Of a DNA stretch of 64,000 bases, positions 5,192 through 57,495 are shown one piece after another (within the stretch, counting starts at the first letter, position 1; each line of letters opens with the position of its first letter). The notes beneath the pieces were generated by a model, which ran no database searches, was not told the origin of the DNA, and worked only from the letters and a program-made list of their open reading frames with translations. The position numbers were made by a program, and so were the translations under genes. Source of the stretch: Allofustis seminis DSM 15817 (GTDB lineage: Bacteria > Bacillota > Bacilli > Lactobacillales > Carnobacteriaceae_A); assembly GCF_000374325.1 (NCBI RefSeq), contig NZ_KB894081.1, forward strand, positions 62,001-126,000. Direction: 5' to 3'.

Positions 5192-5197
5192 GTAGGC

Positions 5198-5287
5198 TAA
5201 GCACCTAACGCCTTACATTATTTCTAATGTAGGTTTTTAGATACTCGCCCCCAAACCGTACGTACACCTCTCGATGTATACGGCTTT
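5198..5287 (-). ncRNA. Group II intron domains V and VI
   Basis: On the minus strand, AGCCGTATACAT-CGAGAGG-TGTACGTACGGTTT (bases 5287 to 5253) folds as the 34-nt catalytic domain V, with the AGC triad and a GAGA-type tetraloop. Just downstream, CCTACATT and AATGTAAGG form a domain VI helix with an unpaired A, the expected branch point. The 3' splice site follows about 20 nt later, a slightly long tail. Confidence 0.85.
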
Positions 5288-5291
5288 CCAT

Positions 5292-30326: not shown

Positions 30327-30450
30327 TCATCATATCAGAGGAAGAATGACTCTTACTTATTTATTTTTGTTGCACTTAATTTTACAACTCGCCTTGAATA
30401 AATAAGTAATGAGGTGTCGTTCATGATTTAAATTGAAAGGAATGAGAATA

Positions 30451-33400
30451 ATGAAGAAGAGAATAACCAGCCTACTGCTGGCCTTTTTGCTGGCGGTAGG
30501 TATGGCATGGCCGCAAGTGTCTCGAACACCTAGCGCTCATGCGGAAGAAGATTTAACGCAGTATATTCAAATGGAAGACAGTCACTTTGACTTTGACCCC
30601 TCCAATCCCCACAAGATTGTCCGGGTCAACGAATCCGGCACACGGGTGATCAACGCCCTGATGTCTAAAAAGATTATCCTACCCGACCATGTAGAAGAAG
30701 TCGGGGACGCGGTCTTTGACGGGGCCGGGTTCTTGGGGCTGGTCGCCCGCGGGCTGAAAAAAGTCGGCACCCGCGCGTTTAACGCGAACTCTATCAGCTA
30801 CCTTGAGACCAGTCATCTTGAAACGATCGGCCACTATGCCTTTGCGAATAATAAACTGACTCACTTTGAATCTGATCAAGCGACAAGTATAGGGCACTAT
30901 GCTTTTTCCAGAAACCAGCTGACCAGTGTAAGTCTGCCCCGAGTGACAAGTATAGGGGCCGCGGCTTTTGAAGGAAACCAGCTGACCAGTTTAAGTCTGC
31001 CCCAGGTGACAAGTATAGGGTCCGATGCTTTTAGGAACAACCAGCTGACCAGTGTAAGTCTGCCCCGAGTGACAAATATAGGGGGCGCGGCTTTTGAAGG
31101 AAACCAGCTGACCAGTTTAAGTCTGCCCCAGGTGACAAGTATAGGGTACAATGCTTTTAGGAACAACCAGCTGACCAGTGTAAGTCTGCCCCGAGTGACA
31201 AATATAGGGACCGAGGTTTTTACCAACAACAAGATTCGCGATTTTCGACAGATCAACTCAGCTGCTAGTATATACAGCAACGCATTCGGCAATCAAACCG
31301 TTGAAGTCAAGCCGACTGCTTATCTTTTTGATGTGGAAGACAACTCGCTTTACACCTTCAGGGGTTTTCGTCAGTATATTGATGAATACTTCCCAGAATA
31401 TCTGGAGAAGGTCGAGGTTAACGGGAAGGTTATGTACCGCTTTAAGAAGGTGGATTTTACCCGGCAAAGAGTCAGTAAACCTAATGGCTATGGGGATTGG
31501 AAAATTACCCTTTACCCACCGGCTCCTTCTCCTTTAGAAGTAACTGCTCTGACTGAGGGTGACTTGAAGATGGAAGTGGGGGTTCCTGACCCGGATGAGT
31601 GGGTGCGAAGAATTGAAATCACCGTCCCCGGCCTGCCGAATGCTATTGTTTTAACGACCGAAGACGGTAAAGATTATGTGTCTAATGGTCAGCCAGTTCC
31701 GGTTGTGGATGGTAAGCTTCAGATCCGGGTGGTCGGCGACACCTTGAAGGCAGGCGCCCGAGTCACCTTCAAGTCCATCAACGACAGCCAAAAAGAAACG
31801 GCCACAAGGGAAACCGTCCAAGCTCGAGTGGACAACACCCCAGTCGTTGAGCCTTTTAAGGAAGTCCGGATCTATGAGAGTGAAGTACTTAACCTGCCAG
31901 TTAAGGTCAAGACCTTTGAAGGGGCAACGGTCCAGTCCGTCAACTATGACAACCTCCCTAGTTTTTTAAGCGGAAGTGCTGACAAGATTAGCGGAACGAC
32001 CACGATTTCAGACTGGCAGGCGGACGAGAAGGAGAAGGTCTTTGAGATTGATGTCAAGGCGACCGACTCCAAAGGTCGAGTCTCTAAGCCAGAGCGTTTA
32101 CGACTAGTTGTCTTGCGTAAGGCCGATATTGTAGAAGACCCACCAGGCAACACCCCGCCTAATGGATATGCCCGGGTGAAATTCTTAGCCGGCAACCACG
32201 GTAAGATCGCAAGAGGGGTCAAGACCTATGATGTCTTGATTCGAACCCATAAGACTCTGGGTGACCTTACCAAGCCGACAATTGAAGCAGACTACGGTTG
32301 GGGACATACAGGTTGGGACAAGGAAGACGCTACCTTAGTTGATCAGGATATGACGGTGACGGCGACCTACAGCCAAGAAATCATCGAAAACCCAACAGGC
32401 CCAGTTCAGCCGGGTTATGTTCGTATCAACTTTACAGCGGATGCTGATCGTGGAAGCTTGAGTGGAGTTCAAGTGATGGATGTGCTTATCGCAGCCAACA
32501 AGACCTTTAAAGACCTCAAGCATCCAACTGTTCAGTCGAAAGAAAACTACGGCTTTACCCAATCTTGGTTGAAGACTGATGGCTCACGCGTGGGAGCGGA
32601 TGAAGTCATGGCAGAAACGGCAACTTTTAAGGCGGAATTGGTTGAAGAGATTATCCCAAGACAGACGACCCCTTACCCAGCAGTGCCTGAAGGTTACGCT
32701 CGCGTGACTTTTGAATCAGACCGCAACGGTGAGGTCTCTGGCACTCTAGTCTATGACGTTTTCCTCGGCAACCGCGTCCGACTCGGTAAGCTGAAGAAGC
32801 CAACCGTCCAGCCGAAACAAGTGCCGGACCGGTTAGACCAGAGTTACACCTTCTTGGGTGAGTGGAGTGTGGCAGATGACCAGGTGATTGAAGGCCCATT
32901 GACAGTTCAGGCCATCAACCGACCAAACGTCATCTATAACCCATCCTATCACTCAGCGGCTGAGCGTTATGTGCGGATTCACTTTAAGCCTGGCTCATAC
33001 GGCCAGTTTACCGCTGGAGATAATATTATTGCCGAAGTTCTCCTCCCCGCCCAGCTGAAACTGAAACACCTTAAAGCACCAGCCGTTACACCCGATTATG
33101 GCTATAGCTTTAAAGAGTGGGACCGCCTCCCATCCACCCCGCTGGACCGTGCTTACTATGTGAATGCCCTGTATGAAAAACAAGCGGGAACAGTGAAGTT
33201 CAAAGGGCAGCTTGTTGGCGGTCAAGAGCCAGGCGTTGATAGCGGCGGACAGCCAACCCCACACTACAACCCTGAAGGATACATGGTTTCAAGTATTGAG
33301 TTTGAAGGTGTTAAGACCATTGAATATGTTGTCACTAACGAAGAAGACCAGACCGTTGCAAGTGGAAAAAACACCAGCTTCTTCCGAATTAATGAGCTGG

Positions 33401-36024
33401 ACTATAAAGACGGTCGCTACACCCTAACGATTACTATTAATAAAGGAACTGACCAGGAACAAACTTTCCAAGAAAACTTTGTGATGAATAAAGAACTTCG
33501 CAATGGGAAAGATGGCAAAGACGGTAAAGATGGTAAGTCAATCACCGTTCGTGAGAAGAAAGACGCACCAGGCACTTACGAAGTTGTTCAAATCGATCCA
33601 ACTAAGAAGCCGGGCGAAGACGGTTATGAAAAAATTCTAGTAGAACTTAAAGACGGTAAGACGCCTACTATCAAGACTGAAAAGGTTGACGGTGGAACAA
33701 AAGTCACCGTTCAAGTAGAAGGTCAAGAAGATAAAGTCTTTACTGTCAAAGACGGAAAAGATGGAGCCAGCGTCACAAACGTTGACACTAGCGATCCTAA
33801 GAAGACTGTGATTACCATTACTAATCCAGATGGAACGACACGAGATATTGAAGTAATCAACGGTACCAATGGTAAAGACGGTGTTAGTGTGACAGGTGCG
33901 ACCTATGACCCAGACAGTGGCATCTTAGTTCTAAAAACTACTGATGGTGAAGGTAAGCCTGGAAAAGACATCACTGTCGGTAAAGTCAAGGGTGAAGATG
34001 GTAAGACACCTGCAATCGAACTTGTCCCAGTTGACGGCGGCACCAAAGTCGTTGTGAAGATTGAAGGCAAGGAAGATCAAAGCTTTACCGTTAAAGACGG
34101 AAAAGATGGCAAAGACGGCGCCAGCATTGAAGTAACAACTAACGCTGATGGCAGCAGTACCATTACCATTACCGAAGAAGGTAAAGAACCGAAGGTTATC
34201 AAGGTCGAAAATGGTAAAGACGGTAAAGATGGTGCCAGCATTACCGGCGCAACCATTGATGAAAATGGTCACTTAAAAGTTACTGTCACACCAGCCGAAG
34301 GAGAACCAACAGTTGTCGACGCTGGTAAGGTGACGGGAGCCGACGGTAAGACGCCAGTGATTACAACTAACAAAGTTGACGGTGTAACCACTGTCACGGT
34401 TACTGTTGACGGCAAAGTGGTTAACACCTTTACCATAAATGATGGTGAAAAAGGTGACCCAGGCACCCCAGGTGAAAAAGGCGAGAAAGGTGAAAAAGGC
34501 GAGAAAGGTGACCCAGGCGATCCCGGAAAAGACGGAACCAGCATAACGGATGTTCGAATTAATGAGAAAGGCTACTTGATTGTGACCCTTACAGACAGCC
34601 AAGGTAATACAACTACGAAAGATTTGGGCAAAGTCACGGGCGAGGATGGCAAAACCCCAACTTTTGAATTCACAGAATTACCAGATGGTTCAGGTACCCG
34701 GGTTACGGTTAAAGTTGAAGGCCAGCAGGACCAACATTTTGACGTTAAACATGGTCAAGATGGAACAAGCATCACCCATGTTGAAGTTGATGAAAAGACA
34801 GGTCACTTAATGGTGACTTTAACTCACGCAGATGGAAGCACTGAGACTACTGATGCGGGAGAAGTTAAGGGCAAAGATGGTAAGACTCCAATCATTGAAA
34901 CTCAGCCCCTTGATGACAATAAAGGTCATCGAATAATCATTAAGATTGAAGGCCAGCCTGACCAAACCTTTGATGTTTTACATGGTGAAAAAGGCGACAA
35001 GGGCGACCAAGGCCCTGAAGGTCCTCAAGGTCCACAAGGTGAAAAAGGCGACAAGGGCGACCAAGGCCCACAAGGTCCAAAAGGTGAAAAAGGCGACAAG
35101 GGCGACCAAGGTCCACAAGGTCCAAAAGGTGAAAAAGGCGACCAAGGCCCACAAGGTCCAAAAGGTGAAAAAGGCGACAAGGGCGACCAAGGTCCTGAGG
35201 GTCCACAAGGTGAAAAAGGCGACAAGGGCGATAAGGGTGACCCAGGTGCACCAGGAAAAGATGGTAAGGATGGAGCACCGGGTCGTGACGGCCAGGATGG
35301 TCGAGATGGCAAAGACGGCAAGGACGGCACACCAGCTCCAAACTACAAGCCAATCCCTAAAGAAGCTCGGTACAAAAACGGCACAGTGATTAAGCCAATG
35401 CGGTTAGAATTTGTGCCAATCAGTCCAACTGCACCTGGCGGCGATCCGAACCGTCCGGAATTGCCGGTAGCAGCCTCAAGAATGGGGACCTCCCGCCGAC
35501 TAGGAAAAGGCGGACACCTGCTTGTTGTTCCTACAGGCAGAAGCAGTCGAACAGAAATTTACTCTGCACGACCTCAGGATTTTCTGAAGCAGGTGGACAG
35601 TTCTGAAGCTGTCACGCAAGAGTTGCCAAAAGACCTTTCAGCTGTGCCAACCTATGTTGTTGAAAATATTCCAGATGGGATTACTTTTGACTTTGAAACG
35701 GGTGAACTCAAAGGCGTTGCTCAAGTGACAGACTGGCAAGAAGGCGAAACAGAGCGAGTCTTTGATATTAAGGTGACAGTGACCAACCCTGATGGTAAGC
35801 AGTATGCAGCGATTCAGCGGATTATTGTTGAACGAGAGCTTGAAGAGACTCCACAGCAAGCACCAACAACGCGTCCAATGATTGCTAAAGAACAAACACC
35901 TCAGCCTGTCACTCTCCCACGAACAGGTGAAAGTTCCAATCTGTCAGTATTTGGACTTGTCCTTACACTTGCAGGCTTACCTCTCCTTTTAACCACTAAA
36001 AAGAAGGAAGAACAAGTCGCTTAA
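30451..36024 (+). CDS. Large LPxTG surface protein with BspA-like LRRs and collagen-like repeats
   Basis: About 1857 residues. A signal peptide (MKKRITSLLLAFLLAVGMAW...AHAEE) is followed by BspA-like (LRR_5) repeats of about 21 residues (NQLTSVSLPRVTSIG, roughly 130-270), a run of beta-type domains, three or four related modules beginning GYVRINF/GYARVTF (about 575-860), several GKTP...VTVKVEG modules (about 1020-1500), and collagen-like Gly-X-Y runs at 34450-34530 and 34990-35320. It ends with LPRTGESSN, a hydrophobic helix and KKKEE, a standard sortase signal. It is probably an adhesin. Base composition is richer in G+C than neighbours. The Met at 30451 was chosen for the signal peptide and GAAAGGA spacing. 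Confidence 0.92.
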   Translation: MKKRITSLLLAFLLAVGMAWPQVSRTPSAHAEEDLTQYIQMEDSHFDFDPSNPHKIVRVNESGTRVINALMSKKIILPDHVEEVGDAVFDGAGFLGLVARGLKKVGTRAFNANSISYLETSHLETIGHYAFANNKLTHFESDQATSIGHYAFSRNQLTSVSLPRVTSIGAAAFEGNQLTSLSLPQVTSIGSDAFRNNQLTSVSLPRVTNIGGAAFEGNQLTSLSLPQVTSIGYNAFRNNQLTSVSLPRVTNIGTEVFTNNKIRDFRQINSAASIYSNAFGNQTVEVKPTAYLFDVEDNSLYTFRGFRQYIDEYFPEYLEKVEVNGKVMYRFKKVDFTRQRVSKPNGYGDWKITLYPPAPSPLEVTALTEGDLKMEVGVPDPDEWVRRIEITVPGLPNAIVLTTEDGKDYVSNGQPVPVVDGKLQIRVVGDTLKAGARVTFKSINDSQKETATRETVQARVDNTPVVEPFKEVRIYESEVLNLPVKVKTFEGATVQSVNYDNLPSFLSGSADKISGTTTISDWQADEKEKVFEIDVKATDSKGRVSKPERLRLVVLRKADIVEDPPGNTPPNGYARVKFLAGNHGKIARGVKTYDVLIRTHKTLGDLTKPTIEADYGWGHTGWDKEDATLVDQDMTVTATYSQEIIENPTGPVQPGYVRINFTADADRGSLSGVQVMDVLIAANKTFKDLKHPTVQSKENYGFTQSWLKTDGSRVGADEVMAETATFKAELVEEIIPRQTTPYPAVPEGYARVTFESDRNGEVSGTLVYDVFLGNRVRLGKLKKPTVQPKQVPDRLDQSYTFLGEWSVADDQVIEGPLTVQAINRPNVIYNPSYHSAAERYVRIHFKPGSYGQFTAGDNIIAEVLLPAQLKLKHLKAPAVTPDYGYSFKEWDRLPSTPLDRAYYVNALYEKQAGTVKFKGQLVGGQEPGVDSGGQPTPHYNPEGYMVSSIEFEGVKTIEYVVTNEEDQTVASGKNTSFFRINELDYKDGRYTLTITINKGTDQEQTFQENFVMNKELRNGKDGKDGKDGKSITVREKKDAPGTYEVVQIDPTKKPGEDGYEKILVELKDGKTPTIKTEKVDGGTKVTVQVEGQEDKVFTVKDGKDGASVTNVDTSDPKKTVITITNPDGTTRDIEVINGTNGKDGVSVTGATYDPDSGILVLKTTDGEGKPGKDITVGKVKGEDGKTPAIELVPVDGGTKVVVKIEGKEDQSFTVKDGKDGKDGASIEVTTNADGSSTITITEEGKEPKVIKVENGKDGKDGASITGATIDENGHLKVTVTPAEGEPTVVDAGKVTGADGKTPVITTNKVDGVTTVTVTVDGKVVNTFTINDGEKGDPGTPGEKGEKGEKGEKGDPGDPGKDGTSITDVRINEKGYLIVTLTDSQGNTTTKDLGKVTGEDGKTPTFEFTELPDGSGTRVTVKVEGQQDQHFDVKHGQDGTSITHVEVDEKTGHLMVTLTHADGSTETTDAGEVKGKDGKTPIIETQPLDDNKGHRIIIKIEGQPDQTFDVLHGEKGDKGDQGPEGPQGPQGEKGDKGDQGPQGPKGEKGDKGDQGPQGPKGEKGDQGPQGPKGEKGDKGDQGPEGPQGEKGDKGDKGDPGAPGKDGKDGAPGRDGQDGRDGKDGKDGTPAPNYKPIPKEARYKNGTVIKPMRLEFVPISPTAPGGDPNRPELPVAASRMGTSRRLGKGGHLLVVPTGRSSRTEIYSARPQDFLKQVDSSEAVTQELPKDLSAVPTYVVENIPDGITFDFETGELKGVAQVTDWQEGETERVFDIKVTVTNPDGKQYAAIQRIIVERELEETPQQAPTTRPMIAKEQTPQPVTLPRTGESSNLSVFGLVLTLAGLPLLLTTKKKEEQVA

Positions 36025-40016: not shown

Positions 40017-43000
40017 ATGGAGTCGAATTTTTCATTTTTAAATAAAGAAAAAATGTATCATTCTTTTGCATCGGCGTGTAGCGAAGCTGAACGTCTTATG
40101 AATGTTTCTTATTCTGCAGCTGCGGCCTACACAAGACGTGCTGCGGAACTGGCGGTAAAGTGGATGTATGCTAATGATAAGGACCTTAATCTTCCATACA
40201 ACGATAATTTTGCAGCACTTATCAATGATTTTGATTTTAAAGATATTGTGGGGCTCGAAATGTATCGGGCGATTGATTTTATACGAGTTCTTGGCAACAA
40301 AGCGGCGCACACTAATATGGCAGTTACAAGATCTCAGGCAGTACTTTCTCTTAGAAATCTTTTTAATTTTACTGATGCCATTGATATGTGGTATTCCAAG
40401 GAATATGAAGAAAAATCATTTAATGAATCTCTCCTTGGAGATAATGACAAACTTAGCAAAACTCAAAAAGAAAAAGAAGAGCTTCTAGAAATAATCTCTT
40501 TAAAAGACAAAAATCTTGAACAAATCATAGAAGAGAACAAAAAACTTCGAGAAGAAAACCAAGCGCACCGCATACAAAATGAACATCAGAGACCTTTTAA
40601 TTTTGAAACAATTTCTGAAAAAGAGACGCGAGAACAATATATTGATCTAGATCTTGAGATGAAGGGCTGGAAATTTGAACATGACTTTTTTAAAGAGGTA
40701 AAAGTCTCTCATACGCCAAATACTTCTAAAGCTGGCTATGCAGATTATGTTCTTTATTCTGATAATGGAAAACCTCTTGCCGTTTTGGAAGCAAAAAGGA
40801 CTTCAAAAAGCCCAATCATTGGCAAACATCAGGTAAGACTCTATGCAGATGCTCTGGAAAAAGAAACGGGAGTGCGCCCGGTAATGTTTTATACCAATGG
40901 AATAAAATATTACATTTGGGATGATGAATCTACTCCTGAAAGAGAAGTTTCTGGAATTTATAGCAAAGAGGACCTTGAAACGCTATTTTTCAAAAGAGAA
41001 AATAAGATTTCTATGGAAAACGCAACGGCAGATCCTAATATTGCAGGAAGATATTATCAGATAGAAGCTGTAAGAAGAGTTCTTGAAAATATTGAAAAAG
41101 GCGCAAGAAAATCACTGCTTGTAATGGCTACAGGTTCTGGAAAGACGCGAACAGCTGCTGCAATCGTTGATATTCTTACAAGACACAACTACGCTAAAAA
41201 CATTTTGTTTTTAGCGGATAGAACGGCCCTTGTAAAGCAGGCCAAGGAAAGTTTTGCGTCACTTCTTCCAAATATGTCCCTTTGTAATCTTTTGGATGGA
41301 AAAGATGATGTAAATAGTAAGATGGTCTTTTCTACTTATCCAACCATCATGAATGCGATAGATGAAAAATTAAATGATGATGAGGATAGAGTTTTTACAA
41401 CGGGTCATTTTGATCTTATTATTTTAGATGAAAGTCATAGATCTATCTACAAAAAATACCAAGCAATTTTTGAATATTTTGATGCATCCCTTCTAGGGCT
41501 TACTGCCACTCCAGTGAATGAAATCGACAGAAATACTTATAGAATTTTTGATATAGAAGATAGCAACCCTACTTATGCATATGAATTGGAAGAAGCCATT
41601 GATGATGGTTTTTTAGTTCCTTATGAACTTCCTACAGTTTCTGTGTCTCAATTTACGAGAAAAGGAATTGTCTATGACAAGCTTTCTGAAGAAGAAAAAG
41701 AGGAGTTTGAAGAAACGTTTGAATCATGTGAGGATATTCCTAGCACGAAAATAAATAGAAGTCTCTTTAATACTTCCACAGTCGATATGATTTTGAAGGA
41801 GCTTATGGAAAAGGGGCTCAAGGTAAGTGGTGGAGATTTTCTTGGGAAGACGATTATTTTTGCTGCAAATAGAGCGCATGCAGATTTTATTGTAGAAAGA
41901 TTCAATGCTCTTTTCCCAGAATACAAGGGAGAGTTTGCAGTGGCAATATATCACAGCATAAATTATGTGGATGATCTTATAGATCGATTTAAAAATTCTA
42001 ATTCCAAACTTCACATAGCAGCATCTGTAGACATGTTAGACACTGGAATAGATGTGCCAGAGATTTTAAATCTTGTATTCTTTAAAGAAGTAAAATCTAA
42101 GACAAAATTCTGGCAGATGATCGGTAGAGGCACTAGACTTTGCAAAGATATATTTGGACCAGGTCTGGATAAGACTAAATTTTATATCTTTGACTACTAC
42201 CAAAATTTCAAATTTTTCCAAGCCAATAAAAAAGAAGCCTCAACACCTATAGCAAAATCACTAACAGAAAACCTCTTTGGGGTAAAACTTGACATCATAA
42301 AAGCGCTTCAACCTGTGGATTTTGAAGAAGAGGCCTATGTAAAATATAGAGAAGAGTTAATAGAAAATATCTTGCGTGAGATAAATGCTATAAGTAGAAA
42401 TAGATTTGACTCAATGATGAAGATTCACCTCTTGGACAAATATGGTGATAAGCGATCATATGAATGTTTGGATGAAAAGAATTTAGACGAGCTCAAAAAA
42501 GAGATTGCACCACTTATAATCTCTACGGATAGAGATGAAATGGCGAAGAGTTTTGACTATCTGATGTATACGATAATTCTTGGAACTCTTCTTGGAAAAC
42601 AAGTTACAAACCCGATAAATAAAGTGGTTACCATTGCAAATCTGCTCTTTGAAAAATTCTCAATTGATCAAGTCAAAAAGCAGAAAGAGCTCATTACAAA
42701 AGCGACGCGATCTGAATTTTGGAATGAGGGAAATATTTTTGACTTCGAAATGGTAAGAGTAGCTCTAAGAGATCTTGTAAAACTTTTAGAAAAAGAGACC
42801 AGACAACTCTACTACACCAGTTTTTCTGATAAAACGATGGGTATAGAAGAGGTAGAAGGGCACTACAAAATAAATGATCTTTCAGCTTATAAGAAAAAAG
42901 TAGAAGAGTATTTCAAAAAATACAAGGACAATCTTCCCATATACAAACTTAGAAACAACAAAAAACTCACAAAAAGCGATCTGAAATATTTTGAAAAGAT

Positions 43001-43340
43001 TCTATTTGAAGAGCTTGGGAATAAAGAGACATTTGAGATGGCATATGGAGAAGGACCACTTATGAATCTTGTGGCAAAGATTGCAGGAATGGATAGAGAA
43101 GCTACAATCGCTGAATTTTCAAAATTTTTAAATGACAAATCGCTTAACGCTGATCAAATAAATTTTGTAAATAAAATAGTGAGCTATCTTATAGAAAATG
43201 GCTCGTTAGACAAAAAAGTGTTGGCGGATTTTCCATTTGCTAAAGCGGGCGGAATCGTTACGATTTTTGAAAACAAAGTCGATGTCGCAAAGAATATAGT
43301 TGAAACGATTGATGAGATAAATAGCAGACTTGTCATCTAA
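40017..43340 (+). CDS. hsdR: Type I restriction enzyme R subunit
   Basis: An intact 1107-residue HsdR. It has an N-terminal DUF4145 region (about 10-125), coiled coil (145-190), the nuclease domain with GYADYVLYS and LAVLEAKRT (240-262), then helicase motifs ATGSGKTRTA (370-380), LDESHRSIYKKYQ, LTATPVNEIDR and MIGRGTRLCKD, and a C-terminal HsdR fold. It translocates and cuts DNA lacking the cognate mark when bound to HsdM2S. AGGAGGG precedes the ATG. With hsdM absent and hsdS broken, it is an orphan here unless partners exist elsewhere. Confidence 0.95.
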   Translation: MESNFSFLNKEKMYHSFASACSEAERLMNVSYSAAAAYTRRAAELAVKWMYANDKDLNLPYNDNFAALINDFDFKDIVGLEMYRAIDFIRVLGNKAAHTNMAVTRSQAVLSLRNLFNFTDAIDMWYSKEYEEKSFNESLLGDNDKLSKTQKEKEELLEIISLKDKNLEQIIEENKKLREENQAHRIQNEHQRPFNFETISEKETREQYIDLDLEMKGWKFEHDFFKEVKVSHTPNTSKAGYADYVLYSDNGKPLAVLEAKRTSKSPIIGKHQVRLYADALEKETGVRPVMFYTNGIKYYIWDDESTPEREVSGIYSKEDLETLFFKRENKISMENATADPNIAGRYYQIEAVRRVLENIEKGARKSLLVMATGSGKTRTAAAIVDILTRHNYAKNILFLADRTALVKQAKESFASLLPNMSLCNLLDGKDDVNSKMVFSTYPTIMNAIDEKLNDDEDRVFTTGHFDLIILDESHRSIYKKYQAIFEYFDASLLGLTATPVNEIDRNTYRIFDIEDSNPTYAYELEEAIDDGFLVPYELPTVSVSQFTRKGIVYDKLSEEEKEEFEETFESCEDIPSTKINRSLFNTSTVDMILKELMEKGLKVSGGDFLGKTIIFAANRAHADFIVERFNALFPEYKGEFAVAIYHSINYVDDLIDRFKNSNSKLHIAASVDMLDTGIDVPEILNLVFFKEVKSKTKFWQMIGRGTRLCKDIFGPGLDKTKFYIFDYYQNFKFFQANKKEASTPIAKSLTENLFGVKLDIIKALQPVDFEEEAYVKYREELIENILREINAISRNRFDSMMKIHLLDKYGDKRSYECLDEKNLDELKKEIAPLIISTDRDEMAKSFDYLMYTIILGTLLGKQVTNPINKVVTIANLLFEKFSIDQVKKQKELITKATRSEFWNEGNIFDFEMVRVALRDLVKLLEKETRQLYYTSFSDKTMGIEEVEGHYKINDLSAYKKKVEEYFKKYKDNLPIYKLRNNKKLTKSDLKYFEKILFEELGNKETFEMAYGEGPLMNLVAKIAGMDREATIAEFSKFLNDKSLNADQINFVNKIVSYLIENGSLDKKVLADFPFAKAGGIVTIFENKVDVAKNIVETIDEINSRLVI

Positions 43341-51898: not shown

Positions 51899-52579
51899 AT
51901 GAAAAAGTTAGAAAAAATGATTCCTTTTATAGCAGCTAATTTTTTTGCTTTTTATATATTACCACTGATTATTAAAGATACAGGTAGTGCGATGTTTATT
52001 TTATTGGTGGGAATTCCAATGATAAACTTTATTGCGGCTTTAATTTATGGCATGAAAAATTCATTCAGTTGGTTGTATCCTTTGCTAGTGATGTTGCTTT
52101 TTATTCCGACACTATTTATCTTTTACAATGAGAGTGCTTGGATTTATATCGTAGTATATGGCATCATTTCGTTAATAGGAAGTTACTTAGGGAATTTGCG
52201 AGAAAGTTTGGTGATTGATATGAATAAAAAATATTTGTTACTCATTTCAAGTTTTATTTACTTTTTATTGTTAATCCTAGCATTTTTTATTGAAGTCCCT
52301 AATTTTATGCTAGTTTTAGTAGGTATCGGCGTATATGTTCATATTTCGATGGAGTATATCAAATTGAAAGGCAATAATAATCAATGGGGCAAGATGGCCC
52401 TCTCTTTTATATTTAGTGCAGTCATATCTGGCGCATTATTAATCATCCTAAGTGCAATTCAAACTTATATTATAGGTTATGATATAACCAATGCATTAAA
52501 TGACAAAATTTTTAAACTTTATTGTACTTTAAGCCTATTTGTTGTTAACACTTTATTAGCTAAATATCGACTATTCTAA
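51899..52579 (+). CDS. Polytopic membrane protein, unknown function
   Basis: A 226-residue protein with about seven hydrophobic segments. GGGAGG lies ten bases before the ATG. No known motif is visible. The CRISPR-like repeats begin 19 bases after its stop. Confidence 0.6.
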   Translation: MKKLEKMIPFIAANFFAFYILPLIIKDTGSAMFILLVGIPMINFIAALIYGMKNSFSWLYPLLVMLLFIPTLFIFYNESAWIYIVVYGIISLIGSYLGNLRESLVIDMNKKYLLLISSFIYFLLLILAFFIEVPNFMLVLVGIGVYVHISMEYIKLKGNNNQWGKMALSFIFSAVISGALLIILSAIQTYIIGYDITNALNDKIFKLYCTLSLFVVNTLLAKYRLF

Positions 52580-52597
52580 AATTGAGAATATATTATA

Positions 52598-52763
52598 TAA
52601 TCCTCACATAAGTGGAGCAGTCGTTTTGGATGACCTAGGGGCAGAAATGGGCGCAATATAGTCCCCATATAAGTGGAGCAGTCCCTACTTGAAATCATAC
52701 AAAAACTCTATCACTAATAGTCACATTTATTGGAATAGTTCCCATGTAAGTGGGGGTGATCCT
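52598..52763. repeat. Three decayed type I-E CRISPR-like repeats (R1-R3)
   Basis: Copies start at 52598, 52659 and 52736. They fit TAGTTCCC-palindrome-GTGATCC with many C-to-T and G-to-A changes. R1 and R2 are exactly 61 bases apart, the unit length of a type I-E array; R2 to R3 is 77. No cas gene is near. Confidence 0.6.
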
Positions 52764-52862
52764 GTAATCGGTGAAAAAGCTACCGTAGTTATAAATCCGG
52801 ACACAGGGAAAGTTGTTACTACTTGGAAGACATCTACTCGTTTAAGAAATAAGTATAAATAA
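52662..52862 (+). pseudogene. C-terminal fragment of a polymorphic-toxin-like protein
   Basis: A 66-codon frame with no start codon begins after a TAG in repeat R2, reads through R3 (WNSSHVSGGDP) and ends VIGEKATVVINPDTGKVVTT...RLRNKYK. The ending resembles toxin tips of secreted polymorphic toxins, and a small acidic gene follows after 13 bases, as an immunity gene would. The family is not certain. Confidence 0.45.
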
Positions 52863-52875
52863 GGGAGTGATTAAG

Positions 52876-53094
52876 ATGTATATAAAGTTAAACACAAAAG
52901 ATGTTGAGATTTTAAAAAGAGGAAAAATTAATTACTTGCCCGAAAAAGATTATTCAGAAGACGAATCCGATGTATTGGTTGATTCAATTAGAGAAAAACA
53001 AATATATTATGCTCAAATAGAAGACACAGAGGCTGCAGAGGATTTTGCTGAAATTGCTGATAAAATTGAGCAATTAATGGATGAAGAATACTAA
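52876..53094 (+). CDS. Small acidic protein, possible immunity protein
   Basis: A 72-residue acidic protein (MYIKLNTKDVEILKRGKINY...IEQLMDEEY). AAGGGAG precedes the ATG at 52876. It sits directly after a toxin-like C-terminal fragment, the usual place for an immunity gene. No family is recognised. Confidence 0.55.
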   Translation: MYIKLNTKDVEILKRGKINYLPEKDYSEDESDVLVDSIREKQIYYAQIEDTEAAEDFAEIADKIEQLMDEEY

Positions 53095-53140
53095 TGATTA
53101 AAGAATATCGAATTTTATTTTTACAGAAAGGAGCGTTCAT

Positions 53141-53218
53141 ATGGCAAAAGATGATGATGACATGTTAGTATTTAAAATTCTCACCTATCTCTATCGGAAA
53201 TTAAAAGAAGAGAAATGA
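53141..53218 (+). CDS. Micro-ORF, 25 residues
   Basis: MAKDDDDMLVFKILTYLYRK with a basic tail, behind a strong AGAAAGGAG site. An acidic N-terminus followed by a short amphipathic helix resembles the minus-strand micro-ORFs at 56-57 kb. The function is unknown. Confidence 0.5.
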   Translation: MAKDDDDMLVFKILTYLYRKLKEEK

Positions 53219-53311
53219 GTAACTTCTCTTTCCCAAAAATGGGGGGGTACATATTAAAATATCACAACAAATAACAAATGTTAATGTTTGATTCAATATT
53301 GGCTATCTTAG

Positions 53312-53339
53312 TAGTCCTTATATAAAAGGGAATGATCTT
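53312..53339. repeat. CRISPR-like repeat R4, decayed
   Basis: It aligns over 28 bases with the intact copies without gaps. Every difference but one is a transition (C to T or G to A). CCTT and AAGG keep the stem paired. Confidence 0.5.
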
Positions 53340-53412
53340 AGAATGTATGAATGAAGCAAAAAAGCGATACCCACCTAAAAGATAAGCGGTTTCGAAGGGG
53401 CAGGGAGTCTCA

Positions 53413-53573
53413 ATGGTTTATGTAATTCCTTTTATATTGTGAGGAATATTTTATTACCAAATGAATGGAAAAAAAGACAAAGAATTAAAGAAGAACAAAA
53501 TGAAAAAGCTATTAAGATTTTAAAGGTAGTTCTGGCACTACTTCACCTAATCTTAACAGCTTTTAAAAAATAA
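53413..53573 (+). pseudogene. Two overlapping short frames behind a duplicated leader
   Basis: Frame 1 (53413-53523) has a good GGGAG site and reads MVYVIPFIL, a TGA, then GIFYYQMNGKKDKELKK; one change would make a 36-residue protein. Frame 2 (53439-53573, GTG start) reads LPNEWKKRQRIKEEQ and ends KILKVVLALLHLILTAFKK before a terminator. Which, if either, is real cannot be told. The preceding leader (53350-53390) is duplicated near 55850. Confidence 0.4.
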
Positions 53574-53580
53574 AACCCGA

Positions 53581-53613
53581 GTGGAAGGTTGACCTTCCCT
53601 TCCACTTTATTTT
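53581..53613 (+). terminator. Terminator hairpin
   Basis: GTGGAAGG pairs with CCTTCCAC-like sequence, then TTTATTTT. Confidence 0.7.
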
Positions 53614-53631
53614 AAAACAAAAAAGGAGTAT

Positions 53632-53718
53632 ATGCAATGGATAAAAAAATATGATTATTTGATTATCATTTTACTGACTTTATCTATAATTTTAGACGTT
53701 ATCCAATTAGTTAGATAA
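53632..53718 (+). CDS. Hydrophobic micro-ORF, type I toxin-like
   Basis: A 28-residue peptide, MQWIKKYDYLIIILLTLSII with the tail LDVIQLVR: a short charged start and one membrane helix, the form of type I toxin peptides. AAAAGGAG lies four bases upstream. No antisense RNA was identified. Confidence 0.45.
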   Translation: MQWIKKYDYLIIILLTLSIILDVIQLVR

Positions 53719-53756
53719 TTCCTTTTTATCTGACTTGAATAATGAGGTGATTAAAT

Positions 53757-53951
53757 ATGTACGCAGATAGCGAAAAAATCAAATGGCTACTTAAAAATGC
53801 AACTCAATATCGTATTGCTAAAGAAACAGGAGTCCCACAACCCACACTTTCTACACTAGCAAACGGGAAGACTAGTATAGAAAATATAAGTTTGGGGAAT
53901 GCATCTAAACTTACAGAATACGCCGATCGATTGATGGAAGAAAATGATTAA
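53757..53951 (+). CDS. Small helix-turn-helix protein
   Basis: A 64-residue protein, ATQYRIAKETGVPQPTLSTL followed by ANGKTSIENISLGNASKLTE, a compact HTH without further domains. TGAGGTG precedes the ATG. A terminator follows. A truncated relative is on the minus strand at 56521. Confidence 0.75.
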   Translation: MYADSEKIKWLLKNATQYRIAKETGVPQPTLSTLANGKTSIENISLGNASKLTEYADRLMEEND

Positions 53952-53953
53952 AA

Positions 53954-53983
53954 AAAGCCATCACATTTAATGGCTTTTCTTTA
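53954..53983 (+). terminator. Terminator after the HTH gene
   Basis: AAAGCCAT pairs with ATGGCTTT and is followed by a T-rich run. Confidence 0.8.
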
Positions 53984-54109
53984 TAAAAATGGTCAAAATT
54001 TTATGTAGTTTTTTTCCGGAGTTTTTCCGAAATAAATTTATGATGCATCCACACCTAATTTCTAAAAATACGTGACTGTGGGCTTTGATACATGCTAACA
54101 TCCATCAAT

Positions 54110-54286
54110 TTAACGCAATAAATCTCCATGTGGGATTTCGTCATAATTTGCTTTATATGTTTTTTGAGCAAATTTATCCCATCCCGAACTAAAAACACAT
54201 ACTGTGTTTTCGTCTTTAAAGGCTTGATGAGTACCGCCTATACCAGCAAATAAATCAGTAAATCGCAAAGAATGTATCCCGTCCAT
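54110..54286 (-). pseudogene. N-terminal fragment of a C5-cytosine methyltransferase
   Basis: 58 residues: SLRFTDLFAGIGGTHQAF (motif I, AdoMet binding) and CVFSSGWDKFAQKTYKANY, then a stop before the catalytic PC motif. It is a stub of a Dcm-type enzyme, of a kind often carried by phages. Confidence 0.8.
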
Positions 54287-54340
54287 ACATAAAAGTCTAG
54301 GCTTTTTATTACTTTATAACTATTTTCTCTAACTCGGGCA

Positions 54341-54550
54341 CTAATCAATTCGCTCAAACACCATAGTTGCTTGAATTCTGTCTCCACCCCCGAAACCTTT
54401 TGAACCTCCATTGGTAGTAGATATAGTGTGTAGTCGATATCCCTTTTCAGCTTGCTGATTAATTACATTTTCAAGTTGTGTTAAGTTTTTTGAACCGACA
54501 CCGAAAAATTTTTCTTTTAAAACAACTTGTAATACTATGTATTGTTTCAA
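54341..54550 (-). CDS. DUF4177-like small protein
   Basis: A 69-residue protein, KQYIVLQVVLKEKFFGVG, LENVINQQAEKGYRLHTIST and ATMVFERI, the DUF4177 pattern. It starts at TTG behind AAAGGAG. The function is unknown. Confidence 0.65.
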   Translation of the reverse strand: MKQYIVLQVVLKEKFFGVGSKNLTQLENVINQQAEKGYRLHTISTTNGGSKGFGGGDRIQATMVFERID

Positions 54551-54569
54551 AGTTATACTCCTTTCAAAA

Positions 54570-55075
54570 TTAAATGACCACCTTCCCTAAAATACTAAAA
54601 TCGTCCTCTTCTTTAATGATAATATCTTCGTATTTATCATTCAACGACTGTAAGCGGACATCACCATTTGTTTTAAATTTTTTCATGGTAATACCACCGT
54701 TTACTGCAAAAACGCCAAGTTCGCCATTTTCAAGTACAAGTTGTAGTTTGTATTCGATAATATCGCCATCAAAAAAATCGGGTTCCATGGAGTCGCCGTT
54801 GACCATGAGGCGGATAGTTTCCAAGCCGATAAAAGGAACGGGTTGTTGTCCGACAAGGGGTTCGTCTGCATCCGTCTGCCCCACCACGTAGTCCGCATAA
54901 TGTTCTTCAAGCTGTTGTTGCTCCAATTGATGTTCGGCGAAGTGGTAAACTTTTTCTTGGCGGGGTTCAGAAAGACTTTCAGAAACTTCGTTTATTTTTT
55001 GAAGTATAGATGGTAGTTCAGTTGTGGCAACTTCACAGAATCATGAACTCCATCTAGAAACACGTCTAGACTCAT
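54570..55075 (-). pseudogene. Phage-type CI/S24 repressor, N-terminally broken
   Basis: The peptidase S24 half is intact: LMVNGDSMEPDFFDGD with the nucleophile Ser and GGITMKKFK with the Lys. Upstream the same frame reads TELPSILQKINEVSESLSE, then breaks; in another frame MSLDVFLDGVHDSVK matches the end of the HTH domain. The DNA-binding part is gone. It is a prophage remnant. Confidence 0.8.
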
Positions 55076-55171
55076 GTCGAAAGCCCCTGTAGAAGGGAGA
55101 TTACTTTCTAGTTAAAAGTTTACCATTTTAAAGTACTCCTTTCAATAAAAAATAGAAAGAGGTTGTTTAGT

Positions 55172-55321
55172 ATGAGTAAAAAGAAGTGGTTCGGCACTTG
55201 GGTATGGAAAGAACCCATCCAAAACGAACAAAAGAGAATTGATATTAACATTGAAGTGGGAATTATTCCAAGCGTTTTATTTGTTGGAACTGTCATTTAT
55301 TTAATCTTTAAATTGATTTAA
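55172..55321 (+). CDS. Small single-span membrane protein
   Basis: A 49-residue protein: a basic, Trp-rich start (MSKKKWFGTWVWKEPIQNEQ), then one helix (IIPSVLFVGTVIYLIFKLI). AGAAAGAGG lies upstream. No family is recognised; it could be phage-derived. Confidence 0.5.
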   Translation: MSKKKWFGTWVWKEPIQNEQKRIDINIEVGIIPSVLFVGTVIYLIFKLI

Positions 55322-55389
55322 AAGCGTATAATTGCTATCTCAAAAGATAGCTTTTATATTTTGAAAATAAGTTTAATGCAGTAAACGAG

Positions 55390-55734
55390 GTGAAAAATTT
55401 GGAGATATATACATCATATAGAATTAAAAAAATGGAGCCGAAGATTGGATTTGTTGAGTTTAGCGAAGAAGAGGGCAAAGAAAATTTACTAAGACAAACC
55501 TATTTAGCGTTAGAGCAAACGAGCCATCCGCAAGTGATGATGAAAACAACTACAGCCCACTCGAATGCTGAAGTTGGCGATAAAGTACGTGTAGTGCGTC
55601 CTGACCTAGGGATTGACTATTATACAAGAGTTTTTGAAGTAACTTACGATGTACTGACGAATAGAATAATGGAAATCAAGTTAGGAGAGATCGATTGTTC
55701 GAATCTCAAGCTAAAAGAGAGCGGCGCATCCTAA
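55390..55734 (+). pseudogene. C-terminal fragment of a phage tail endopeptidase-like protein
   Basis: The frame's second half, AHSNAEVGDKVRVVRPDLGI, then YYTRVFEVTYDVLTNRIMEI and KLGE, matches the end of the structural part of phage tail endopeptidase (Gp18-like) proteins. The first 45 residues do not fit and the start is a weak GTG, so this is probably a fused remnant. It ends against repeat R5. Confidence 0.5.
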
Positions 55735-55744
55735 GTGATCCAAC

Positions 55745-55834
55745 GTAGTTCCCGCGTAAGCGGGGGTGATCCTGTGGACACAGTAGTAATTGCAGTTTGC
55801 AACTCATAGTTCCTGCGTAAGCGGGAGTGATCCC
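55745..55834. CRISPR. Two near-intact type I-E-like repeats around one 33-nt spacer (R5, R6)
   Basis: R5 (55745-55772) and R6 (55806-55833) are 28-base repeats of the form RTAGTTCC-YGCGTAAGCGGG-RGTGATCC, exactly 61 bases apart. The spacer is 55773-55805. CCCGC/GCGGG forms the stem with loop GTAA. This is the best-preserved CRISPR-like unit; no leader or cas gene is seen. Confidence 0.6.
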
Positions 55835-55849
55835 TTATAAAAAAATAGA

Positions 55850-55925
55850 AAGCAAAAAAAGCGACACTCACCAAGAAGATAAGTAATCGCTTAGGCTAGG
55901 GAGTAACGGTCCCTAGCCTTATTAT
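55850..55925 (+). ncRNA. Structured leader, second copy
   Basis: AGCGA...TCGCT, then the strong hairpin GGCTAGGGA...TCCCTAGCC. The first 35 bases match 53350-53385 (AGCGAYACYCACC...AAGATAAG). It precedes a ribosome site and a short frame in both places, so it may be a regulatory 5' region or small RNA. Confidence 0.45.
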
Positions 55926-55948
55926 AGAAAAAATAAGGAGGAATAACA

Positions 55949-56095
55949 ATGGTTTATATAGTTCCCGCATAAGAGGGGGTGATTCTTGTTTTCTTTTCCA
56001 TTGCCACCACCTTCTATTTATGTTATATTTTAATTAAAGGTAAGGGGACGGGCAGTGATCCCTATACCCAAACGATTATGCTATGTCGCGAATGA
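55949..56095 (+). pseudogene. Short frame interrupted by CRISPR-like repeat R7
   Basis: Behind ATAAGGAGG the frame reads MVYIVPA and meets a TAA lying inside R7; past it the same frame continues EGVILVFFSIATTFYLCYIL for 41 codons. It starts like the frame at 53413 (MVYVIPF), so the repeat appears to have replaced the following codons. Confidence 0.4.
55958..55986. repeat. CRISPR-like repeat R7
   Basis: ATAGTTCCCGCATAAG then AGGGGGTGATTC: two mismatches in the stem and one near the end. Confidence 0.55.
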
Positions 56096-56144
56096 GTTTA
56101 AAGACTTCTAAAACTAATTTGCGACTTTTTTGTTGCTCAGTCAT
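56076..56144 (-). CDS. Micro-ORF, 22 residues, behind repeat R8
   Basis: MTEQQKSRKLVLEVFKLIRD and IA. AAAAAGGGGTGGCG supplies a ribosome site. Repeat R8 lies 20 bases upstream of the ATG. It resembles the micro-ORF at 56709 (both begin with QQK and a K/R pair, then an amphipathic helix). Confidence 0.45.
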   Translation of the reverse strand: MTEQQKSRKLVLEVFKLIRDIA

Positions 56145-56163
56145 AATCGCCACCCCTTTTTGC

Positions 56164-56192
56164 GTAGTTCCCGCGTAAGCGGGAGTGATCCT
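56164..56192. repeat. CRISPR-like repeat R8
   Basis: An intact copy: GTAGTTCCCGCG-TAAG-CGGGAGTGATCC. Confidence 0.6.
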
Positions 56193-56345
56193 CACTCCTT
56201 TTCATTTTTATTATTTTTTTTCATAACTTTTTCTCGCAGTAAATAAAATTATCCAAGAAATAAGCAAAATAATATTAAATTCAATCATGGCATTTTTTAT
56301 GGCATGATGATATACTGTAATTAAGAAAGGGGGTTGCCCCCTTGT

Positions 56346-56492
56346 TTAACTTTCTTTAATTGAGTCAATTTTCATTTTTTTGGTTTTGTAATCGAGAATT
56401 ATTTTTAAAAAGTGTCTTGACTCATTTATCAATCCTAGTACCAAGATAACGGTTGTGGCCTTTTCTTGTGCTAGGATTTTTATTATATCCAT
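56346..56492 (-). CDS. Micro-ORF, 48 residues, behind repeat R9
   Basis: MDIIKILAQEKATTVILVLG with a charged C-terminal half (INESRHFLKIILDYKTKK). AAAGGAGG gives a strong ribosome site. Repeat R9 lies 34 bases upstream. The function is unknown. Confidence 0.5.
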   Translation of the reverse strand: MDIIKILAQEKATTVILVLGLINESRHFLKIILDYKTKKMKIDSIKES

Positions 56493-56520
56493 CAAGCCTT
56501 TTTCCTCCTTTCTTAACTTT

Positions 56521-56634
56521 CTAAGTAGTTCCCGCGTAAGCGGGGGTGGGCTTTTTAGCTATTCTATATGATGACAGTCCAGAAGAAAAAAGGAGCTTTT
56601 CTATTTCGTCTATGTGAATTGTTTTGTTTTTCAT
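56521..56634 (-). pseudogene. HTH micro-ORF truncated within repeat R9
   Basis: MKNKTIHIDEIEKLLFSSGL, then SSYRIAKK, resembles the start of the HTH protein at 53757 (QYRIAKE). It then runs into R9 and ends PTPAYAGTT, the usual translation of this repeat. AGAAAGGAAAT is upstream. It is a gene cut by a repeat-bearing junction. Confidence 0.55.
56525..56550. repeat. CRISPR-like repeat R9
   Basis: GTAGTTCCCGCG-TAAG-CGGGGGTG; the last bases (ATCC) are replaced by GGC. Confidence 0.55.
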
Positions 56635-56708
56635 TGCGTTATTTCCTTTCTTATGGTAGTATTAAATAAAGGATAAGGGCGTCAATGACGCCCAAACCGT
56701 TTTTGGGG

Positions 56709-56807
56709 TTAAAGCTTGAAAAGTTTAGCTATTTCTATAATGATGCCCATTATAAAAACAATTAGCTTAATAATTTCAAGCGGTCGCTTTTTTTGTTGGA
56801 TATCCAA
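56709..56807 (-). CDS. Hydrophobic micro-ORF, 32 residues, behind repeat R10
   Basis: It starts at TTG: MDIQQKKRPLEIIKLIVFIM, then GIIIEIAKLFKL. A basic start and one membrane helix give a toxin-like form. AAGGGGGTG serves as ribosome site and overlaps the edge of R10. Confidence 0.45.
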   Translation of the reverse strand: MDIQQKKRPLEIIKLIVFIMGIIIEIAKLFKL

Positions 56808-56827
56808 GATAACGGCACCCCCTTTCG

Positions 56828-56907
56828 TGATTTTCGCGTAAGGGGGTAGCTTTTATTGCCATCTTTATCTCGTCAATAAACAAATGTAGTTCCTACATTA
56901 AAAAGAA
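56828..56907. repeat. Two decayed CRISPR-like repeats (R10, R11)
   Basis: R10 (56828) keeps CGCGTAAG-GGGG; R11 (56887) keeps TAGTTCC and CATTA only. They are 59 bases apart, close to the 61 of a type I-E unit. R11 is weak. Confidence 0.35.
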
Positions 56908-56992
56908 TATAGATAGTGCCAAAGAAGATGGTTATTTTGATTGATTGAGAAAAAAGCTTATCAGCCTGATAAGATAGAGCAACTCATAGATG

Positions 56993-57024
56993 AAGCACAC
57001 TAACAATTGTTAGTGTGCTTTTTT
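56993..57024 (+). terminator. Strong terminator
   Basis: AAGCACACTAAC-AATT-GTTAGTGTGCTT followed by TTTT: a perfect 12-base stem. Just before it a frame ends KKAYQPDKIEQLIDEAH, the tail of a lost gene. Confidence 0.92.
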
Positions 57025-57026
57025 AT

Positions 57027-57495
57027 GGAAAAGAAACGGCCATGTGATTCATAGTTTAGAGATACATGAGGTTTAAAAATATATACCACTTAGATAGGAC
57101 TGCTAGATGATACTGTTAAAAAGTATCTTAAAAAAGTTGAGTTTGTTGCAACAAGTTGGGATTATTAGAAGTAGAAAATGATGAATTAAATCTTGGAGTG
57201 GGTGTAACATTATGAGATAGCGAGCAGAATGAATGTAGTGAGAGTTTGTCTATGGATGTGATCATTTCAGTATCCTATTATAGTTGAAATGATCGATATT
57301 TTACTATATATTATAAGGACGTAACCGAGTTTAGATGGGTTTTAAAAAAGCGAAATTTCATGCCTTATTTTAGGGTATATTTAATAGAAGGGTAGTCTTT
57401 TGCGGTGTCGTGAGATAAAAGTTGCACAAGTGGGATAGCGTTGCTTGATCATGTTGCCTTAGGTCGTGCGACAAATAAGAAACAGGAGCGAAAAT
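57027..57495. other. Region upstream of the dlt operon
   Basis: 470 bases without a supportable gene. It should hold the dlt promoter; the pair TTGATC (57447) and following sequence is not a clear match, so I do not assign one. Confidence 0.4.

Follow-up and report, generated by a model that had tools for sequence, protein, structure and literature searches.

The window analyzed here, a stretch of 64,000 nucleotides of Allofustis seminis DSM 15817 (contig NZ_KB894081.1, positions 62,001 to 126,000 of the forward strand), carries between 52597 and 56854 a series of dispersed 28-nt repeats, R1 to R10, of the clustered regularly interspaced short palindromic repeat (CRISPR) kind. We are almost certain that this locus is what remains, without cas genes, of a type I-E CRISPR array and, with confidence that stands about midway, we favor the reading that its spacers served for recombination with the phages that they target, after which the array decayed. 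The locus contains type I-E repeats and a genuine spacer that matches the organism's own genome, the cas families searched for were not found, several inserts in the position of spacers are phage DNA, and the borders of this DNA lie flush with R5, R6, and R7. These observations support the proposal, made in a preliminary description of this DNA, of an array blown apart by insertions.

A search of the window with CCCGCGTAAGCGGGGGTGATCC at up to 3 mismatches returned six copies, all on the + strand between 52741 and 56552, against a mean of 0 in 100 shuffles. The species is represented by one genome (G000, 1.44 Mb), in 14 contigs that include C1, C3, C4, C8, and C9, and in the whole of it the same threshold recovered the same six copies at this one locus and none on the reverse strand. 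The genome-wide multiplicity of repetitive extragenic palindromic (REP) elements or bacterial interspersed mosaic elements (BIMEs), which would amount to hundreds of sites, was not seen. The exact 27-base repeat also had no copy in the viral contigs or genome contigs of public collections, searches of which may omit records very close to the window's own. The second proposal of the preliminary description, that the repeat itself moves, was therefore dropped, and a REP-like element was rejected together with it.

The 28-nt consensus of the repeat is GTAGTTCCCGCGTAAGCGGGGGTGATCC, and six copies match it clearly (R3 and R5 to R9). A weight matrix was made from these six, so that their own high scores are by construction; when the window was scanned with it, R2 and R4 scored above the best site outside 52500-57000 (14.1 bits), R1 and R10 were each within noise on their own, and a candidate R11 at 56886 received -1.2 bits and is not counted as a repeat. 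Hence, of the eleven repeats first claimed, eight are supported by sequence and two by context (52597 and 56827), and the one placed at 56887 is unsupported. The positions first given for the repeats fall one base inside the 28-mer starts. The copies are as follows.

52597 to 52624, + strand: R1, degenerate repeat (4.5 bits; 89% identity to R2, at an offset of exactly 61 bp)
52658 to 52685, + strand: R2, degenerate repeat (16.9 bits)
52735 to 52762, + strand: R3, repeat with the stem altered to CCCAT/GTGGG (3 core mismatches; predicted hairpin)
53311 to 53338, + strand: R4, decayed repeat (16.1 bits)
55745 to 55772, + strand: R5, intact repeat (0 mismatches)
55806 to 55833, + strand: R6, repeat (2 mismatches)
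55958 to 55985, + strand: R7, repeat with one stem mismatch (3 mismatches)
56164 to 56191, + strand: R8, repeat (1 mismatch)
56525 to 56552, + strand: R9, repeat with its last bases altered (3 mismatches)
56827 to 56854, + strand: R10, weak decayed repeat (5.8 bits; R8 with module B and R10 with module D, described below, align together)

The start-to-start spacing is exactly 61 bp for R1-R2 and R5-R6, as had been described, and runs from 59 to 2434 bp for the other neighbors. The range of 77 to 2434 bp previously given for the remaining copies is right, and the 59-bp unit that had been put forward for R10-R11 depends on the unsupported R11. Gaps outside the two supported 61-bp pairs measure 49 to 2,406 bp and are largely phage DNA, and the regular type I-E spacing with spacers of about 33 nt does not extend across the locus; given this array-wide irregularity, we speak of a relic and not of an array in the working sense. 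When the copies were folded and compared with 200 shuffles each, as good a fold was reached by 1 shuffle for R5 and by 0 for R6 and R8, and by 19 for R2, 35 for R3, 19 for R9, 79 for R1, 92 for R4, 44 for R7, and 82 for R10, seven copies that are thus less distinct from the shuffles or not distinct at all. One pair of the stem is A-T in R1 to R3 versus G-C in R5, R6, R8, and R9, both sides having changed with pairing kept; this amounts to one event at most, and R1 to R3 may share a single ancestor.

The repeat belongs to the CRISPR repeats of type I-E, as indicated by its motif kin in the order and by an array adjoining a type I-E cas operon in a genome of the same family. The generalized motif TCCCCGCRNNNGCGGGGGTGATCC, with 1 mismatch allowed, was found in 23 of the 395 genomes sampled from the order, its own included. 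Seven of these 23, with the present genome among the seven, have a single match, and the genomes with matches at several places show steps of 61-62 bp, with 122-bp gaps in G112 and G302. G194 and G302 carry TTCCCGCATAAGCGGGGGTGATCC, one base different from the window repeat, and G006, a member of the same family, has its array next to genes that match type I-E Cas3, Cse1, Cse2, Cas7, Cas5, Cas6e, Cas1e, and Cas2e, the last fused to a DnaQ-like exonuclease. Stretches of seven more motif-bearing genomes, which were chosen and not sampled (six with few matches, plus G190 with an isolated copy), showed 1-3 repeats in five cases, two of them near a contig end.

The absence of cas genes, first stated for the window, holds genome-wide for the four families searched. 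The cas1, casE, and cas7 models had 0 matches in the whole genome, the casE model being one that does detect G006, and cas3 had four matches, all under the curated cut-off, which are presumably other helicases; Cas2, Cas5, Cse1, and Cse2 were not searched for. A review (PMC8616872) describes orphan arrays and reads them as a sign of degeneration. The present locus is like these in having repeats and at least one real spacer with cas genes not found, and unlike them in keeping the 61-bp spacing in two supported pairs only, with phage-filled gaps elsewhere.

The two supported pairs each enclose a spacer.

55773 to 55805, + strand: 33-nt self-matching spacer R5-R6, equal to C9:43575-43543 in 32 of 33 bases
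52625 to 52657, + strand: 33-nt spacer R1-R2, in the 61-bp spacing, target not found

A match in a mobile element was thus obtained for one of the two. The protospacer of the R5-R6 spacer (C9:43543-43575, with the 5' flank AAA) lies in the Amidase_2 endolysin gene of a resident prophage on contig C9, whose gene content includes an integrase, an S24 repressor, a terminase, a Mu F head protein, a tape measure protein, and tail genes. Against the phage collection, the same spacer returned 18 records, each with coverage of at most 55% and E >= 1, which were taken as chance. Separately, the record IMGVR_UViG_2518285549_000003 (IMG/VR) has open reading frames (ORFs) that, in the stretch inspected, read identical to those of the C9 prophage, and it probably represents the C9 prophage itself, taken from this strain or a very near one.

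The R1-R2 spacer had no match elsewhere in its own genome at E<=0.001 and no second full 10-base seed match in the window. R1 and R2 share departures from the consensus at a distance of 61 bp, in a region with many small ORFs, as might be expected of CreTA-like regulatory RNAs, in which degenerate pairs of this kind repress a nearby small toxin gene via Cascade. Set against this are the lack of any match to cas1, casE, and cas7 in the genome and the missing seed match, which leave the idea hardly credible; a CreTA-like pair at R1-R2 was rejected on the grounds that no Cascade gene (casE, cas7) and no seed match were found. Degenerate type I-E pairs lying away from a regular array were observed in G190 (positions 4926 and 4976 of the stretch, 50 bp apart) and in IMGVR_UViG_2811995247 (- strand, positions 639 and 698 of the stretch, 59 bp apart), and these are possible CreA-like units.

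The borders of the phage DNA provide further evidence. To the left of R5, homology to a prophage tail gene ends by BLAST at 55746 and the repeat begins at 55745, the two extra bases being taken as chance. To the right of R6, a strict local alignment to C9:44627-44751 covers 55834-55943 and starts at the first base after R6, at the same position whether the query begins at 55834 or at 55761 (score 51; 0 of 500 shuffles as high, maximum 47; best score elsewhere on C9, 32). At R7, the evidence comes from two paralogous phage-type micro-modules, B and D (the module names and the ORF letters A to D are labels of this analysis): their paralogy covers 56160-55986, where its last base is the one next to R7 also if the B sequence is lengthened to take in R7, and, aligned without the repeats, they score 62 (0 of 500 shuffles as high, maximum 43). 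At the opposite end, the alignment leaves no more than 3 nt between B and R8 and 1 nt between D and R10, and the helix-turn-helix (HTH) ORF of module D reaches the 3' edge of R9. At three borders, those of R5, R6, and R7, the distance to the repeat edge is 0-2 nt.

Recombination of phages with CRISPR loci, between spacer and protospacer, is said to have been reported by Varble in 2019 and 2021, and, to our knowledge, phage entry through spacer homology is known mainly from experiments and from a few type II/III cases. A similar course may be proposed here. The array would have taken spacers from a phage family still resident in the genome, and its cas genes would have been lost. Homologous recombination between a 33-bp spacer and the matching protospacer of a phage, whether incoming or resident, would place a crossover within the spacer and leave phage DNA that is flush with the repeat on one side and, on the other, extends farther than the 33 nt of the spacer. 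With one such crossover on either side of R5-spacer-R6, each in the adjoining spacer, the phage stretch between the two would be exchanged for the repeat unit. Indeed, R5-spacer-R6 sits between the equivalents of C9 40358 and C9 44627, where it replaces 4.27 kb of phage DNA, and its endolysin spacer comes from that very stretch, on the opposite strand; the observed layout fits the two-crossover product. The locus, now without Cas proteins, would later have decayed through mutations, deletions, and duplications. From the borders and the layout we infer that the flush ends are former spacers, that recombination was the joining process, and that the events took this order. Spacers recombining with their targets in phages are described in the review cited above (PMC8616872). 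The present locus is like those cases in that phage DNA is joined to a CRISPR locus via a matching spacer, and unlike them in being of type I-E, in having lost its cas genes, and in having several borders, of presumed recombinational origin, within one fossil locus.

If this is right, the locus would be a fossil, the remains of an immune memory that acted as homology for the entry of the remembered phage. A type I-E array overwritten several times by spacer recombination would suggest a route of CRISPR locus loss, and exact 33-nt spacers would be predicted in sister strains.

The same borders bear on plain erosion, according to which a cas-less array beside prophages underwent deletions and illegitimate joins that put phage fragments against repeats, with the spacers uninvolved. 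Large deletions are evident in the region, as at the join of a lysogeny region to a tail gene at 55420-55433, and R1, R2, R4, and R10 are decayed, as erosion would have it. What it explains less well is that three borders lie 0-2 nt from a repeat edge, although joins made at random in a 61-bp unit would, by our own estimate, come this close in about 1 of 12 cases each, and that the spacer between two of the borders derives from the phage stretch that they delimit. We consider erosion unlikely, although it deserves serious weight; were it or another of the plainer explanations true, the locus would be an ordinary orphan array in advanced decay.

Several observations count against recombination through the spacers. 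The alignment to C9 beyond R6 contains gaps and divergent positions and exceeds the shuffles by a narrow margin (51 versus 47), and looser scoring carried it through R6, which makes this border firm, if not absolute. Simple spacer recombination also does not predict that ORFs B, C, and D all start close to the neighboring repeat. A compact ancestral array has no support from a sister strain, the family set of 27 genomes (own included, from nine genera) holding this genome alone from its genus; in addition, a dlt-like gene at 57466, used as a synteny anchor, was found in 0 of the 26 other family genomes at E<=1e-50. Finally, the flanks of the inserts give a mixed picture, in which the insert starts look spacer-like and most insert ends do not. 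The protospacer adjacent motif (PAM) of type I-E relatives is AA/AAA, and an AA flank is present at both checkable insert starts, after R6 (in C9) and after R7 (in the paralogue D); since AA makes up about 13% of the dinucleotides in the region, the two AA starts are weak evidence. Counting 33 nt back from the ends of the long inserts, AA occurs in one of six cases only, at R4, the other flanks being GC at R5, TA at R7, TT at R8, CA at R9, and TT at R10, with GG in C9 at the R5 place.

The lack of an AA flank at five of the six insert ends favors erosion. Together with the AA-type starts after R6 and R7, it would also be expected if the PAM end alone had been processed, that is, if a former Cas1-Cas2 had integrated untrimmed phage fragments of 124-333 nt, as aberrantly long spacers cut right at the PAM end only. 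Type I-E integration, however, gives spacers of fixed length, with which such inserts conflict, and the arrays listed for the relatives step by 61-62 bp, the exceptions being the 122-bp gaps of G112 and G302 and the outlying degenerate copies of G190 and one viral contig. Moreover, the tail-gene piece that ends at R5 leads, on its other side, into a 2.4-kb block with rearrangements. Long spacers are on these grounds a very improbable origin of the inserts.

Another explanation is that the repeats were borne by the phages themselves, as solitary units or as a mini-array, R5-spacer-R6, against a rival phage, in prophages that then decayed; this we find doubtful. Solitary repeat units without cas genes (RNA anti-CRISPRs, Racr) are known in viruses according to PMC10651486, and cas-less mini-arrays in viruses are likewise recorded in PMC6858448. 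As with the former, intact single repeats stand here among phage micro-genes; as with the latter, R5-spacer-R6 has one spacer, directed against a related phage; and R8-B and R10-D align as units with the repeat included. Unlike Racr units, the repeats here number up to 10 within 4.3 kb, far beyond solitary, and two of their pairs enclose regular spacers; the host has no Cas, among the families searched, that they could inhibit; and in the three modules open to comparison, those of C9, G296, and phage PH15, the small ORF has, by eye, no repeat upstream. Neither of two patterns revealed a solitary repeat in viral contigs: the exact 27-mer was not found, as stated above, and a degenerate pattern matched one viral contig only, in arrays with steps of 61-62 bp and one outlying degenerate pair. 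Racr repeats are intergenic and often lie just downstream of a promoter in the phage, and promoter-like sites were here close to chance, at 22 versus a shuffle mean of 17.3 (sd 4.4), with no clear excess. Unlike virus-borne mini-arrays, R5-spacer-R6 has no leader shown, is flanked by phage DNA cut at the repeats, and has more repeats nearby.

The small ORFs at 56709-56807, 56346-56495, and 56076-56144 (- strand; D, C, and B, respectively) each have a ribosome binding site (RBS), recognized by eye, within about 13 nt of a repeat border, followed by a hairpin and a further gene start. This cassette-like layout, with no room for a promoter between RBS and repeat, could suggest that the repeats served as joining points for foreign gene cassettes in an integron-like manner, the cassettes having entered, in the form of long DNA or of copies made from mRNA, through the integration machinery of the CRISPR system and not by spacer recombination. 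Phage micro-gene units would then be stacked between CRISPR repeats like integron cassettes, an arrangement to which we give little credence.

The DNA between the repeats, from left to right, is composed of the following pieces.

52763 to 53310, + strand: long insert R3-R4, with an ORF tail, a 72-aa ORF, and a 25-aa ORF similar to ORFs of an island on C4
53339 to 53955, + strand: phage micro-gene pieces after R4, namely a decayed copy of the R6-R7 segment, then a small ORF, a hairpin, a tiny ORF, and an HTH ORF
54110 to 54286, - strand: N-terminal fragment of a C5 cytosine methyltransferase, of uncertain origin (PF00145, 3.4e-13)
54340 to 55433: remnant of a prophage lysogeny region, with DUF4177 and the end of an S24 repressor (minus strand)
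55420 to 55744, + strand: fragment of a prophage tail endopeptidase gene that ends at R5 (equal to C9:40036-40358, 89%)
55834 to 55957, + strand: phage segment R6-R7, with the end of a small ORF, a hairpin, and the start of the next small ORF
55986 to 56163, - strand: phage-type micro-module B, with the start of an HTH ORF, a hairpin, and small ORF B with an RBS by eye; paralogous to module D
56192 to 56524, - strand: phage micro-module C, with small ORF A, a hairpin, and the 49-aa ORF C (phrog_4761, 3.6e-10)
56553 to 56826, - strand: phage-type micro-module D, with an HTH ORF cut at R9, a hairpin, and small ORF D with an RBS by eye

The phage pieces and micro-ORFs that had been described between the copies were recovered, and the toxin fragment remains suggestive only: the ORF tail after 52763 resembles, by eye, the end of a polymorphic toxin and has no Pfam match above the cut-off. 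The 72-aa ORF had no homologue confirmed in genome contigs and, among the 395 genomes, matched its own copy only. Compared with the collections as a whole, the region 52500-57000 had matches in 4 plasmid and 20 phage records, which cover 1-4% of its length.

In the segment after R4, the HTH ORF (53757-53951, 64 aa) matches phrog_1529 at 6e-22, and 53470-53955 shares 71% identity with the end of contig C1. This segment aligns with the one after R6 (score 58 including the repeats; maximum of 200 shuffles, 36), so that either of the two may have been copied from the other. The lysogeny remnant at 54340-55433 is 88-91% identical to C9/C8, except for a 71% stretch at 55078-55359, and is joined to the tail gene via a short shared stretch, making a large deletion plain.

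Layouts similar to those of the micro-modules exist elsewhere. On C9, a small ORF, a hairpin, and a tiny ORF follow the endolysin gene, and the contig ends before any HTH gene; all parts of the small ORF-hairpin-tiny ORF-HTH module are present in G296; and Streptococcus phage PH15 has a similar module layout near its right end. The HTH fragment of module D had no match in phages or plasmids and, among the 395 genomes, one weak match besides its own, in G296 (E = 0.01, residues 6-27 of 28), and ORF C had no homologue confirmed in viral contigs. As for the small ORF that R7 interrupts and the sister ORF at 53412, comparison with C9 and G296 suggests the start of the small phage ORF that follows the hairpin. 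An Fst-type toxin was considered for both and rejected, with none above the cut-off in NCBIfam and no such family among the seven sub-threshold Rfam matches in the region, one of which is SIB_RNA (E = 1.4) at 53496-53637.

Elsewhere in the genome, C4:68000-74000 holds a cluster of small ORFs that resemble, by eye, toxin/immunity leftovers and have short stretches in common with both ends of the CRISPR region, and positions 667-2803 of a stretch of contig C8 hold a deleted relative of the C9 prophage, in which an S24 repressor is followed by a fusion of Mu F head protein and an Ntox50 toxin domain. The window itself further contains, at 5192-7169 on the - strand, a group II intron (RF00029) whose ORF has reverse transcriptase, maturase, and HNH domains; at 30433-36024, a large protein that has collagen repeats and leucine-rich repeats of the BspA type; and at 40017-43340, a type I restriction R subunit.

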